From: Arcicella rosea
Lineage (GTDB): Bacteria; Bacteroidota; Bacteroidia; Cytophagales; Spirosomataceae
NCBI RefSeq assembly: GCF_014204325.1
Contig: NZ_JACHKT010000032.1
Span: forward strand, 1-61,382
DNA length: 61,382 nucleotides
Reading direction: 5' to 3'
The position numbers were made by a program, and so were the translations under genes. This document shows positions 43,703 through 48,225 of this stretch, piece by piece. The notes below the pieces were generated by a model. It saw only the letters and a program-made list of their open reading frames with translations, did not search any database and had not been told where the DNA came from. Each line of letters opens with the position of its first letter. Position 1 is the stretch's first letter.

Positions 43703-44434
43703 TTAAATCTTCCGCTTCAATTCAAAATGTTTACCCAAGTACAAGCGTCTTACTTGTTCATCATCAGCCAATTCTTGTGGTGTACCAGCTTTCAGAATTT
43801 TACCTTCAAAAAGTAAATAAGCACGGTCAGTGATTGAAAGTGTTTCGTCCACATTGTGGTCGGTAATTAAAATTCCGATATTTCTATACTTTAATTTGGC
43901 TACAATTCCTTGAATTTCTTCTACCGCAATGGGGTCAACCCCAGCGAAAGGCTCATCCAACAAAATAAATTTTGGGTCAACCGCCAAAGCACGAGCAATT
44001 TCAGTACGACGACGCTCCCCACCAGAAAGTACTTGACCTAAGTTTTTACGAACGTGTGTCAACGAAAACTCTTCTAAAAGCGATTCAGTTTTTTCACGTT
44101 GTTCTTGTTTAGAAAGCTTAGTCATTTCCAAAACGGCTAAAATATTTTCCTCTACCGAAAGACTTCTAAAAACCGAAGCCTCCTGAGCCAAGTAACCAAT
44201 TCCCAATCTGGCACGTTTGTACATGGGCAAGTCCGTTATTTCGGTATCATCCAAAAATACTTTGCCAGAATTCGGCTTTACCAAGCCTGTAGCCATGTAA
44301 AAGGAAGTGGTTTTCCCAGCACCATTTGGCCCTAAAAGCCCCACAATTTCACCTTGTGCTACTTGGTAACTAACGTTATCATTTACGAGACGCTGCCCGT
44401 ACTTTTTAACTAAATTTTCTGTTCTTAAAATCAT
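43703..44434 (-). CDS. lptB: LPS export ABC transporter ATP-binding protein LptB
   Basis: LptB powers LptFG to extract lipopolysaccharide from the inner membrane. The 243-residue ABC protein has Walker [14 protein letters not shown], signature [15 protein letters not shown], Walker [14 protein letters not shown], the switch region [10 protein letters not shown], and LptB-type [18 protein letters not shown]. Its start codon overlaps the stop of the acidic 80-residue gene (ATGA at 44434-44431), making it the last member of a translationally coupled chain of four genes. LptA, LptC, LptF and LptG are not in the window. The upstream coupling to an ATPase and nuclease is unusual. Confidence 0.93.
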
Positions 44435-44673
44435 AATTCAATAGTACTCAACAGCTCGTCGTCTTGCCAAACAAGCCGAAAAGTTCTGTCAAATGTTAAA
44501 TAATTTCCTTCTACTAAACTAAATACCCACACTGGGTCGCCTTCTTCGTCCAAAGCAATCGTTATTTCGTTATCGTCTTTCAAGCAGTCTGTTATGACCA
44601 AATCATAAGCTTCACAGATACAATCTATTATGCTATCTTCATAAATTATTTCTTTTGAAAAAAGGTTTTTCAT
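44431..44673 (-). CDS. small highly acidic hypothetical protein
   Basis: I do not recognise this 80-residue protein. It has 20 Asp/Glu against 5 Lys/Arg, a net charge of about minus 15, with short beta-prone stretches such as [19 protein letters not shown]. No signal peptide or membrane helix is visible. It overlaps the nuclease-like gene upstream and lptB downstream by four bases each (ATGA at both ends), so its translation is coupled to both. The strong negative charge would suit a DNA-mimic or an inhibitor of the adjacent nuclease, which is inference only. Confidence 0.75.
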
Positions 44674-45110
44674 AGCTGTTCTTCCATTTTTTTACTTCCA
44701 TACACCAGAGTTCCATTAAGTTCTTTTAGCCGTTTACTAAGTTTTATTAAACGTGTGTCACGCAAATCTGGAGTATTCACTTTTGAAAGTACAATTATAC
44801 CATTTACAGCATTATGACTGAATGAAGATAAAAGCTTATCAAGTGAAGTGTTGATTTGACTGACGGCTTTTATTAAATCTGAGCCTTTTAATTCAATGAA
44901 ATAAAGCTTTTCATCTTCAACAACCAAGAGATAATCACACTTTTCTCCTTCACTAATCAAGCAATTATCAACCCTGTATTTCTTTAAAGATTTATTTCTA
45001 AGATTATTGACGATAAATTCCCGACTCTCTTTGTCATCCTTGAATACTGCTATTCTACGAGTGTCATTAAATTCAACACATTGTTCTGATAGGTTGGTAG
45101 TTAGTCTCAT
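44670..45110 (-). CDS. putative PD-(D/E)xK nuclease-like protein
   Basis: The 146-residue protein carries a recognisable PD-(D/E)xK-type core: Asp59 in KCDYLLVVEDEK, Glu73 and Lys75 in YFIELKGS, and Gln85 in KAVSQI. It could therefore cut DNA or bind nucleic acid. It has no separate DNA-binding domain. ATGA overlaps link it to the ATPase upstream and the acidic protein downstream. I see no close match to a named restriction enzyme or defence nuclease. The call rests on this motif spacing and needs a profile search. Confidence 0.65.
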   Translation of the reverse strand: MRLTTNLSEQCVEFNDTRRIAVFKDDKESREFIVNNLRNKSLKKYRVDNCLISEGEKCDYLLVVEDEKLYFIELKGSDLIKAVSQINTSLDKLLSSFSHNAVNGIIVLSKVNTPDLRDTRLIKLSKRLKELNGTLVYGSKKMEEQL

Positions 45111-46414
45111 GTTAAATCAAAAAGTTGGTCAAATTTATCATTATTAATTCTGGAAGCGGTGTCTATTTCTTCTACTCTAATAATTTTTAATTCCTCATCA
45201 ATGATGTCACGAATACGCCCTTTGTTGTCTTTTCCTCCCACAAAATAGGATTTTATTTTTTCTGGACTTAGCCAAAGTTGTTTGTCAATAATCTCAGATA
45301 CTTTTTCAGGATGTTTTTCTCCGACTTGGTAAGCATAAATCAAATTGTTTATCGAAGTCAATAAATAGGGTGAATGAGTAGTGATAAATACTTGATTGCC
45401 ATTTTGATTGGCTAATAAAGCAATTAAATCAATCATATTTTTTTGTGCTTCTGGAAATAAATGAGCTTCTGGCTCTTCTATTACAATAAATAGGTTTTGT
45501 GGAATATCAATAAATAGGAGTATCATTTGAACAATCCAAATCGCTTCTTGTTGACCAGACGAAGCAAGAAGAAGTCTGATATAGTGTTTATTATTGATTC
45601 TGATTTTATCACCTTCATTGTTATCATAGAAATACTCTCCAATCAATATGTCACTTGCGAGTTTTTGAGCGAGTATAAATATTTCTTCATTGTTATTATA
45701 TTCATCTTCAAAATTTGAAGAATATGAGCTAAAGATATTTTTGGCATTATCTATCCGTTTTAGAAAATCTTTAGTCAAAAAATCAAATTGTTGCGACGAA
45801 ATCTCTTGGACTTTTTCTGAAAGTGCGGAAAATGCACTTCGTCCAGCAGGAATGAAAAGTAAGTCTTTCTCAAAACTAAAACCTAAGAGGTCGTTGAGGG
45901 AACTTTTTACCTTTTTAATGTAATTACTTCGTTGCTCATCTATATCATTTAACTCACTTGATGTCAAAAATTTATTATCAAATTTGTGGTATTGGTTAGC
46001 TCTGATACTAAGAAAATCAATTTCCTCATTTAGACTCTTTTCAAAATAATCACTAAACACCACCTTAACAAAATCATCTTCATAGTCTAGGGATATACTT
46101 AAAGAAACATTTTCGCTATAAAAAAACGCTAAAGTAAAATTTGAATTGGTTTGATGAACCGAGCCAAAATAATCGGTAAGTTTATTTCTAACAATCTTGT
46201 TAAGTGAAGTAATCGGAGTATCAAAATTATTATCGTCAAAAGCATTCCTTAAATATTTCATCAAATCATCTCGCAATGACAAAAAGAAAAATACAGTTTT
46301 GGCAATAGTACTTTTTCCACTTGCTTGTGGTCCAATAAAAATAGCAAAGTCGTTGATTTCCATCTCGACATCTTCAATTGGACCAAAGTTTTTGATGATT
46401 ATCTTTTGCTTCAT
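45107..46414 (-). CDS. AAA-type ABC ATPase (OLD/RecF-like)
   Basis: The 435-residue ATPase has Walker A GPQASGKST at residues 28-36, a signature-like LLLASSGQQEAIW, Walker B VIEEPEAHLFPE, and the switch histidine in ITTHSPYLLTS. This is the AAA_15/AAA_21 layout of OLD, RecF and many phage-defence ATPases. It has no Toprim domain, so the nuclease would have to come from the adjacent PD-(D/E)xK protein, which overlaps its stop by four bases. A REP-like hairpin lies between recJ and this gene. Confidence 0.85.
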   Translation of the reverse strand: MKQKIIIKNFGPIEDVEMEINDFAIFIGPQASGKSTIAKTVFFFLSLRDDLMKYLRNAFDDNNFDTPITSLNKIVRNKLTDYFGSVHQTNSNFTLAFFYSENVSLSISLDYEDDFVKVVFSDYFEKSLNEEIDFLSIRANQYHKFDNKFLTSSELNDIDEQRSNYIKKVKSSLNDLLGFSFEKDLLFIPAGRSAFSALSEKVQEISSQQFDFLTKDFLKRIDNAKNIFSSYSSNFEDEYNNNEEIFILAQKLASDILIGEYFYDNNEGDKIRINNKHYIRLLLASSGQQEAIWIVQMILLFIDIPQNLFIVIEEPEAHLFPEAQKNMIDLIALLANQNGNQVFITTHSPYLLTSINNLIYAYQVGEKHPEKVSEIIDKQLWLSPEKIKSYFVGGKDNKGRIRDIIDEELKIIRVEEIDTASRINNDKFDQLFDLT

Positions 46415-46453: not shown

Positions 46454-46475
46454 TGGCTGGTATCCCTACCAGCCA
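46454..46475. repeat. REP-like hairpin upstream of the ATPase gene
   Basis: TGGCTGGTA and TACCAGCCA form a perfect 9-bp stem around a four-base loop, in the 70-base gap between recJ and the ATPase gene. It lacks a T run. Confidence 0.7.
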
Positions 46476-46484
46476 CTAAAATCC

Positions 46485-48209
46485 CTAAACCTTAATATCC
46501 TTCAACATCAACTGAAATGATTTTCTTCCTTGCCATTCGTTGATTTCTATGGTATAGCATATTGAAAAGGGTTTGCCTTCTTGTAGTTGCTCAAAATAGT
46601 CTTCTACCATCCCGAAACCTACACAAGTATAAGCGGGTGAATCTTCTTGAAAAACATTGATTTTTAAATGCTTTTCTTTCATCTTCAATGCTTTGCCATG
46701 CAAGTAAACATTTTCCGAAACAAAAACTGGCGTCATATTTTGTGGACCAAATGGCGACATCTGCGACATGATTCTATGAAATTTGTCTGAAATTTCTACC
46801 AAAGGCAATTTCAAATCTATGTCAATCTTGGGCGACAATTGTTCGGGCAAGATTTTTCGATTAACGACCTCTTCAAATTTACGTCTAAAATTTTCTATCT
46901 CAGCGATTTCCAACGTTAAACCTGCCGCAAAAGTATGTCCGCCAAATTGTATCAAATGTTCTGAACACTCCTCAATGGCATCATACACATCAAAACCCGG
47001 TACTGAACGAGCCGAACCCGCAGCATGTCCATGCGATTCTGTCAGAATAATCGTTGGGCGATGATACTTTTCGATACATCTACTCGCTACAATTCCGATT
47101 ACTCCTTTGTGCCAATCATTTTTAAAAAGTACTGTACTTTTGGCAGATTTCAGCAATTCGTCTTCTTCAATGATACTCAAAGCTTCGGCGGTGATATTAC
47201 TGTCAAAGTTTTTTCTGTCGTTATTATGTTTGGTAATAATATTGGCAAAATCTGTGGCTTCTTCTTCGTTGTCGGTCAATAATAAGTTAACGGCATCATA
47301 AGCGTGTTTGATTCTTCCTGCGGCATTGATTCTTGGTCCTAAGCCAAAAACAACTTTCGTAATATCCATTTTACCTGCCAAACTTGCCGATTGCATCAAA
47401 GCTTTCAATCCCGTTCTTGGATTGGAGTTCAATTGTTGCAAACCATAAAAAGCCATAATTCTATTTTCGCCCGTAATCGGCACAATATCGCAAGAAATAG
47501 AAGTAACGACTAAATCTAAGTAAGGCATTAATAATTCTTGAGAAATTCCCTGCGTTTGGCAATACGCTTGTAATAATTTAAAACCAACGCCACAACCTGT
47601 TAATTCTTTGTAGGGATATACACAATCAGACCTTTTGGGGTCAAGTATTGCTACGGCTGGTGGAAGGTCGTTATCGTCAGGACGGTGATGGTCGCATACG
47701 ATAAAGTCAACGCCATGTTCTTTTGCCCAAGTAATTTTTTCTTTGGATTTAATTCCGCAGTCTAAGCTCACTATCAATCCAAATCCTTCATTAGCCGCTT
47801 TTTCCACACCAGCTTGCGAAACGCCATAACCTTCGGCATAGCGGTCGGGAATATAAAATTCTAAAGGACAGCTTGCTGAATTTTGATAAACGACATTTTT
47901 CAAGAAACCGTAAAACGTTGCAACCGAAGTAGTTCCGTCCACATCGTAGTCGCCATAAATCATCACTTTTTCGCCCGACGAAATGGCTTTCGTTAGGCGT
48001 TCTACTGCTTTGTCCATGTCTTTCATCAAGAATGGGTCGTGCAGATGAGCTAAATCTGGGCGAAAAAATGCTTTGGCTTCTTCAAAAGTATTAATATCAC
48101 GCTGAGTTAAGAGCGTTGCTATTTCCGTTGAAACATTAATTGCTTCAGCGACTTGTTTTATTTTTTCTGTGGAAGGAATGGGTTTATAAATCCAACGTTT
48201 TTCTGTCAT
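46485..48209 (-). CDS. recJ: single-stranded-DNA-specific exonuclease RecJ
   Basis: RecJ degrades single strands 5' to 3' in recombination and repair. The start at 48209 (MTEKRWIYKP) gives 574 residues. DHH-family metal motifs are present: MIYGDYDVDGTTS near residue 80, VSLDCGIKSKEK, VCDHHRPDD, and the DHHA1 part GSARSVPGFDVY with QFGGHTFAAGL. It lies just upstream of the ATPase cassette on the same strand. A TATTTTTG element at 48214-48221 would give a very short or absent leader. Confidence 0.94.
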   Translation of the reverse strand: MTEKRWIYKPIPSTEKIKQVAEAINVSTEIATLLTQRDINTFEEAKAFFRPDLAHLHDPFLMKDMDKAVERLTKAISSGEKVMIYGDYDVDGTTSVATFYGFLKNVVYQNSASCPLEFYIPDRYAEGYGVSQAGVEKAANEGFGLIVSLDCGIKSKEKITWAKEHGVDFIVCDHHRPDDNDLPPAVAILDPKRSDCVYPYKELTGCGVGFKLLQAYCQTQGISQELLMPYLDLVVTSISCDIVPITGENRIMAFYGLQQLNSNPRTGLKALMQSASLAGKMDITKVVFGLGPRINAAGRIKHAYDAVNLLLTDNEEEATDFANIITKHNNDRKNFDSNITAEALSIIEEDELLKSAKSTVLFKNDWHKGVIGIVASRCIEKYHRPTIILTESHGHAAGSARSVPGFDVYDAIEECSEHLIQFGGHTFAAGLTLEIAEIENFRRKFEEVVNRKILPEQLSPKIDIDLKLPLVEISDKFHRIMSQMSPFGPQNMTPVFVSENVYLHGKALKMKEKHLKINVFQEDSPAYTCVGFGMVEDYFEQLQEGKPFSICYTIEINEWQGRKSFQLMLKDIKV

Positions 48210-48213
48210 AAGG

Positions 48214-48221
48214 CAAAAATA
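48214..48221 (-). promoter_or_regulatory. predicted -7 element of recJ
   Basis: TATTTTTG on the minus strand matches TAnnTTTG and ends five bases before the start codon, which implies a nearly leaderless message. No -33 element is evident. Confidence 0.35.
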
Positions 48222-48225
48222 CAAA

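Follow-up and report, generated by a model that had tools for sequence, protein, structure and literature searches.

An ATPase, a putative nuclease and an acidic protein are encoded between recJ and lptB

We examined a 61,382-nucleotide contig of Arcicella rosea (NZ_JACHKT010000032.1, assembly GCF_014204325.1; hereafter the window), in which three genes encoding an ATPase, a PD-(D/E)xK-type nuclease and a small acidic protein form a cassette between recJ and lptB (Table 1). A first-pass annotation of this DNA had described the three genes and lptB as a four-gene array with an ATGA overlap at every junction. The open reading frame (ORF) coordinates and the junction sequences confirmed this layout: all three junctions read TCAT on the plus strand, which is ATGA on the coding strand, and the ATGA of lptB provides the stop codon (TGA) of the acidic frame. 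The recJ gene lies 70 bp upstream of the ATPase gene, and recO lies beyond lptB in the opposite direction (NCBIfam, above cut-off). Longest-ORF calls in 80 regions from genomes of the family gave 201 same-strand neighbours, of which 10 had a 4-nt overlap. Within the window this overlap occurred at 5 of 35 same-strand junctions, three of them in the cassette, against 2 of 32 among the others. Because such overlaps are uncommon, at about one in twenty same-strand junctions, three in succession are not due to chance. Scans for consensus promoters and terminators gave no signal above the shuffled level, and no convincing direct repeat flanks the ends of the cassette.

Table 1. Genes and features of the recJ-lptB region in the window
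Feature	Position	Strand	Basis
recJ, resident upstream gene	46485..48224	-	TIGR00644 2e-154, above cut-off; adjacency survey
Hairpin, perfect 8-bp stem, between cassette and recJ	46454..46475	-	
ABC (ATP-binding cassette)/OLD-type ATPase, 435 aa, first gene of pair	45107..46414	-	Pfam AAA_15/AAA_21
PD-(D/E)xK-type nuclease (likely), 146 aa, second gene of pair	44670..45110	-	Invariant residues, confident model, weak PDC-M29B match
Acidic protein, 80 aa, pI 4.05, companion gene	44431..44673	-	Homologues in 4 sister genomes, dN < dS
lptB, 243 aa, resident downstream gene	43703..44434	-	TIGR04406 6.1e-111, above cut-off

The first protein was called an OLD/RecF-like ATPase in the first-pass annotation, and Pfam bears this out with AAA_15 (2.2e-35) and AAA_21, both above cut-off; matches to RecF, RecN and SMC families fell below it. 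The Walker A motif, the SSGQQE signature, the EEPE of Walker B and a THSPY motif are unvarying in four ATPases, the window's included. PDB entry 6p74 matches the protein at 7.1e-9, and the PADLOC models Old and GajA hit it as well. The best PADLOC model was AriA (7.6e-43) and the second PDC-M29A (PDLC04562, 2.1e-24). The Pfam matches stop at residue 364, and none of them is a TOPRIM domain.

For the nuclease, the evidence comes from conserved residues and from a predicted structure. Across 40 aligned nucleases, D48, D59, F71, E73, L74, K75, G76 and Q85 do not vary. The AlphaFold model is confident (predicted local distance difference test score, pLDDT, 91.5; predicted template modelling score, pTM, 0.87) and places strands at residues 42-46, 60-64 and 68-74, a helix at 79-96 and a strand at 101-108. 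A PD-(D/E)xK core consists of a strand, a strand, a helix and a strand, with the D...(D/E)xK residues in that order. In the model D59 starts a strand, E73 and K75 end the next strand and Q85 lies in the following helix, which is the D...ExK placement expected of such a core. The ten top PDB chains in a Foldseek search included Hef, 2vld (twice), XPF and EcoT38I, with TM-scores of 0.2 to 0.4; eight of the ten are enzymes of the PD-(D/E)xK superfamily. Against a viral structure library, Foldseek found nothing at E <= 0.001, and the best match (1.5e-3) was to an uncharacterised protein. No Pfam family matched the 146-residue protein at cut-off, and neither Pfam nor PADLOC found an HNH or PtuB family on it or on the acidic protein. 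Its sole PADLOC match at E up to 1 was PDC-M29B (PDLC04563), a weak one (5.3e-6) covering positions 35-112 of the 164-position profile; the same model matches 13 of the 40 aligned nucleases. The nuclease was not found in a scan of viral contigs, and searches returned one weak plasmid record and two weak phage records. The invariant residues and the confident model thus speak for the PD-(D/E)xK assignment of the first-pass annotation; the search of solved structures gave no significant match, though most of its top chains are of that superfamily. We conclude that a PD-(D/E)xK fold is likely, though not proven.

The ATPase and the nuclease form a conserved, portable pair

A scan with each species represented by one genome gave 48 nuclease loci, and a sample of 395 genomes of the phylum gave ten rows (one of them the window and one a repeat of an earlier locus), for 56 other loci in all. 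These are partly dependent: the setting is the same in five Geobacillus loci, and a single Arcicella metagenome-assembled genome (MAG) supplied two others. The ATPase gene stands directly upstream of the nuclease gene in 51 of the 56 loci. Spacing between the two runs from -152 to +11 in 50 of these 51, the exception being a Persicitalea copy in which the nuclease frame is broken. Three of the five loci without an upstream ATPase begin at a contig end; the other two (L033 and L063) have upstream DNA in which no ATPase was found. A tree of 50 ATPases covers nine phyla. We conclude that the ATPase and the nuclease are a real, conserved two-gene module. The first-pass proposal of an ATPase working with a small nuclease therefore stands, for a two-gene and, as far as its sequence tells, probably defensive unit that also occurs away from lptB.

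The closest relative of the window's ATPase belongs to the pair of the Arcicella MAG (support 100/99), and there too recJ and lptB flank the pair. Identity between the two is 51% for the ATPase and 79% for recJ, so the cassette either evolved faster than its surroundings or entered more than once. Occurrence is patchy. Counting the window each time, the nuclease is present in 4 of 99 relatives and in 10 of the 395 genomes of the phylum, and the pair has the scattered distribution at variable sites that is expected of defence genes. This pattern bears on a role in DNA repair, in which the pair would be an accessory acting with RecJ or in replication rather than in defence. The adjoining recJ gene and the RecF/RecN/SMC-type matches of the ATPase, though below the Pfam cut-off, would fit that role. 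The patchy presence does not, and among the contexts listed recJ stands beside the pair only in this genus; we therefore regard a repair accessory as very improbable.

The neighbours of the pair elsewhere are diverse. Those identified above curated cut-offs are pyrH (Raineya), frr (Persicitalea), sdhA and sdhB (Flavobacteriaceae), lolA (Bacteroidales), porX (Prevotellaceae) and ilvE (Helicobacter). Below cut-off we found an FtsK-type gene before lolA in Bacteroidales, a Uup-type gene before ilvE in Helicobacter and a CcmC-type gene in Emticicia. By Pfam, a DNA polymerase III alpha gene follows the pair in G038, and in Planctomycetaceae MAGs an ATP synthase alpha gene precedes it at one locus (L027 1077-4501) and an epsilon gene lies two genes further on at another (L044 1-1732). 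Relatives have pyrH and frr side by side in 18 of 23 rows. The pair thus looks like an insertion between resident genes.

Some of these loci deserve description in their own right. In the Persicitalea copy, which lies between pyrH and frr (L004 1331-3060, L037 2869-4598), one TAG breaks the nuclease frame and the ATPase ORF is free of stops; this copy is a decaying cassette. The region upstream of sdhB is variable in the genus of G482 (L165, L153-L162): it holds the pair or other small genes, or else an sdhA-like gene comes directly before sdhB (gene names by eye, except for sdhB-type domains). In one of the Planctomycetaceae loci (L044), genes that resemble, by eye, an antitoxin and a PIN-domain protein separate the pair from the ATP synthase epsilon gene.

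The recJ-lptB junction takes unrelated inserts in related genomes

We surveyed the DNA upstream of lptB in 98 rows, comprising a first set of 18, drawn from the initial search for relatives and the regions around it, from which the idea arose, and 80 added as a test. The added rows were chosen across genera among the matches listed of 210 family genomes with lptB. One genome, G007, fills two rows and the window none, so that the survey covers 98 genomes once the window is included. The recJ gene was found upstream of lptB in 68 of the 98, namely 51 of the 80 added genomes and 17 of the first set, the window among them. In the other 30, mostly of one genus, recJ was not seen within ~5.5 kb (or a shorter contig) upstream of lptB; inserts longer than this would escape the survey.

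More than 300 bp separate recJ from lptB in 15 of the 68 genomes, and in 14 of these the interval holds a recognisable gene (Table 2), leaving 54 genomes without a gene-bearing insert. Such inserts occur in 6 of 17 genomes of the first set and 8 of 51 of the added set. Defence-type or toxin-antitoxin-type genes make up eight of the 14 inserts: 5 of the 6 first-set inserts and 3 of the 8 added ones. Near-empty sites exist as well: in two sister genomes 3 bp lie between recJ and lptB. At a control junction, pyrH-frr, pyrH (by eye) lay within 246 bp of frr with no insert above 300 bp in 18 of 23 rows; the other five rows did not resolve, and the sample differs from the recJ-lptB set. We conclude that the recJ-lptB junction repeatedly takes small inserts.

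Table 2. Gene-bearing inserts between recJ and lptB
Genome	Insert	Set
Window	ATPase-nuclease pair and acidic gene	First
G003 (sister genome)	Related pair, 25-bp gap to lptB	First
G005 (sister genome)	C5 methyltransferase and R.HinP1I-type enzyme, ATGA overlap with lptB	First
G013	ParE-like gene, nucleotidyltransferase and HEPN genes	First
G007	202-aa protein (L124 3563-4171, opposite strand), CRISPR-associated PADLOC PD_DExK model 7.2e-38	First
G010	GNAT-like gene, by likeness to G048	First
G606	HicB/HicA, both tested	Added
G038	HicB tested, HicA by likeness	Added
G021	HepT-like gene	Added
G048	GNAT acetyltransferase	Added
G627	Transporter-like gene, by eye	Added
G640, G033, G614	No gene identity	Added

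The first-pass annotation had singled out the coupling to lptB, an essential gene of lipopolysaccharide (LPS) export, as the odd feature of the locus. Since unrelated inserts occupy the same junction in relatives, among them a HinP1I-type restriction-modification (R-M) system that is itself ATGA-coupled, HicB/HicA, a HepT-like gene and nucleotidyltransferase/HEPN genes, the coupling is not peculiar to this cassette. An insert frame that runs into lptB's ATGA ends there. The overlap would have arisen because the insert landed at the gene boundary, with the acidic frame using the TGA within lptB's ATGA, and it need not regulate lptB. The link to lptB therefore looks positional, a feature of the spot rather than of a special circuit. 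Of the options first offered, an accident of insertion comes nearest, except that the site has taken inserts repeatedly.

We also considered that the cassette might be a regulatory or surveillance device for LPS export, adjusting lptB translation or guarding LptB. The ATGA overlap with lptB, which the window shares with two further genomes whose inserts differ, could be read in this way. Unrelated inserts at the lptB site, the 25-bp gap that separates the related pair of a sister genome from lptB, and the many unrelated genes that adjoin the pair's relatives all argue otherwise, and we give scarcely any weight to such a device.

A selfish addiction module has more to recommend it. Here the pair, or the nuclease alone, would be a toxin checked by its partner, loss would be costly and phage defence would be secondary. 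The HicB/HicA, HepT-like and nucleotidyltransferase/HEPN genes and the R-M system found at the same site would be fitting company, and post-segregational killing is argued for operon-inserted R-M systems (PMC10273834). The ATPase, however, is large and OLD-like, unlike an antitoxin, and absence is common, because 54 of the 68 genomes have no gene-bearing insert at the junction. We consider addiction unlikely as the main role.

The acidic gene is a genus-specific companion

The small third protein was correctly described as strongly acidic, with 20 aspartates and glutamates against 5 lysines and arginines and an isoelectric point (pI) of 4.05. It has no family match at cut-off in Pfam and none in PADLOC. 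Homologues were found in four other genomes, all of the same genus, so that, counting the window, 5 genomes among 222 of the family carry the gene. Among the 395 phylum genomes it occurred only in the window, apart from a 37-residue match with a stop that we set aside, and none was found in plasmids. Matches at E 0.14 to 1 in 19 other genomes were also set aside, and the sole viral match of the acidic profile (L128) proved on reading to be coincidental, in a phage-type frame that is unrelated. Nonsynonymous divergence (dN) was below synonymous divergence (dS) in all ten pairwise comparisons of the five acidic genes; the gene is therefore real and under selection.

In three sister genomes (G003, G005 and G006) the acidic gene lies in another operon, after a C5 methyltransferase gene, which in G006 is truncated by the contig end, and a gene for a 368-residue protein, to which it is ATGA-coupled. 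The residents on either side are a DUF58-like gene and the gene after it in what seems to be a bat operon. In G004 the acidic gene occupies the same place without the methyltransferase and 368-residue genes. The 17 nt just upstream of it are identical to the end of the 368-residue gene in two of the sisters, which suggests that it once followed that gene here too. The 368-residue protein is a putative restriction enzyme. Of four phylum loci that carry a relative, at least two have it behind a gene resembling, by eye, a DNA methyltransferase. Three observations count against a restriction gene: the protein has no family match, it has no counterpart among PDB sequences, and the top plasmid match carries a cytosine methyltransferase annotation.

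We tried three ways of assigning the acidic gene to a larger unit and rejected each. The three cassette genes had first been read as one unit, and this did not hold: the acidic profile, searched against the 61 other pair loci (4419 ORFs, with some loci repeating one site), had no match at E <= 10, and the gene also accompanies the methyltransferase and putative restriction cassette. It is not intrinsic to that R-M cassette, being absent at all four loci of 368-residue relatives outside the genus. Nor is it native to the second operon, where the two resident genes are adjacent without it in 6 of 11 genomes (one more of the 11 is cut at a contig end). Within one genus, then, two unrelated nuclease-type cassettes in two operons share the same acidic last gene, and it was seen with neither elsewhere.

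The acidic protein most likely modulates nuclease activity, perhaps by inhibiting or buffering it; this is a guess from its charge and position. Its pI, set against 8.72 for the nuclease, would suit an inhibitor. A single-sequence fold prediction (pLDDT 54) was unusable. A broader proposal is that the protein is an exchangeable, overlap-coupled last gene that restrains a nuclease or mimics DNA and thereby lets toxic cassettes settle inside an operon of core genes, and that on its own, as in one genome, it would protect against re-entry of such nucleases. We regard this broader role as decidedly doubtful.

The pair is a candidate defence system near PDC-M29

Among known systems the closest is PDC-M29, whose A and B models match the two window proteins in that order. 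It differs in that the match of the window nuclease is weak and covers part of the profile, and in that a minority of its relatives match PDC-M29B. The PDC families come from a guilt-by-embedding preprint, and a paper that cites it gives most of them as unvalidated (PMC12988326). Our literature search found no paper naming PDC-M29.

PARIS shares the two-gene layout of an ATPase with an effector, and its AriA gave the best-scoring ATPase model, which in practice acts as a general AAA_15 model. The PARIS effector AriB is a TOPRIM protein, whereas the effector here is PD-(D/E)xK-type. No AriB match was found beside the window's ATPase: when PADLOC was run on both partners, the nuclease was hit by PDC-M29B only and the acidic protein by nothing. 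Septu and retron Ec78 (PtuAB) likewise pair an OLD-like ATPase with a separate small nuclease. Their PtuB is an HNH nuclease; PtuB was not found in the cassette, and PtuA models score far lower on the ATPase. Kinship of the ATPase also extends to OLD and Gabija (GajA), as the PADLOC and 6p74 matches indicate, but the window's ATPase has no TOPRIM match and the cassette no helicase partner. On sequence grounds we would place the cassette near PDC-M29, as a two-gene defence candidate made up of an ATPase and a PD-(D/E)xK protein.

Defence genes inside resident operons have been described by Kobayashi and co-workers: according to a review of base-excision restriction enzymes, R-M systems insert into operons and two systems compete for one operon position (PMC10273834). 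At the present locus the insert is a non-R-M ATPase-nuclease pair, and R-M, toxin-antitoxin-type and pair inserts alternate at recJ-lptB among genomes. Searches for operon defence genes and for a recJ/lptB hotspot returned no title on the recJ/lptB site. The cassette is ordinary in its placement and new in its details.

Taken together, the locus is probably best explained as a portable two-gene anti-phage module which, with a genus-specific acidic companion, sits between recJ and lptB at an insert-prone junction. Several findings weigh against this explanation. Foldseek gave no PDB match to the nuclease model at E <= 0.001 (best 0.058, TM-score 0.34). The ATPase models are broad, with 99 PADLOC families matching at E up to 1, so the class of the ATPase is unspecific. 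The nuclease is rare: leaving aside the window's genome, it turns up in 3 of 98 relatives. The inserts of the added set, 3 of 8 of them of toxin-antitoxin type, brought no further R-M system or ATPase-nuclease pair; with this weaker result, the site's share of defence genes rests partly on the first set. Finally, a general preference of the pair for tight positions failed its control: the next gene lies within 25 bp at 17 of 47 loci, compared with 94 of 273 in the background. Because the next gene is, over all loci, no closer than in the background, we claim no general operon preference. Bacteroidota loci gave 10 of 18 compared with 28 of 105 (p 0.017), a post hoc value for a subset picked after the data were seen and with two rows from one MAG.

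An anti-phage role of the pair is nonetheless probable. The ATPase, of the OLD/RecF/SMC type, would bind the ends of DNA or some structure produced by the phage and, once bound, would license the small nuclease. The licensed nuclease would then cut nucleic acid and halt phage growth, with or without death of the cell. In this scheme we infer the DNA target, the activation by the ATPase and defence as the selected role.

The locus offers a test bed for two matters, the role of a widespread candidate pair of ATPase and PD-(D/E)xK nuclease and the way in which defence modules settle between core genes. With R-M, toxin-antitoxin-type and ATPase-nuclease inserts and near-empty sister sites at one junction, the insertion process is directly comparable. 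The acidic protein accompanies both of these unrelated nuclease cassettes within the genus and is a candidate nuclease-restraining part of general use.

Two minor features were recorded in the same genome. Contig C45 (L152) carries a second frr-like ORF, N-terminally short, which may be a duplicate or belong to a stray contig. The hairpin between the cassette and recJ has the arms TGGCTGGT-N6-ACCAGCCA, and three near copies, with two changes each, occur elsewhere in the Arcicella rosea genome; it is possibly a member of a small repeat family or a terminator.

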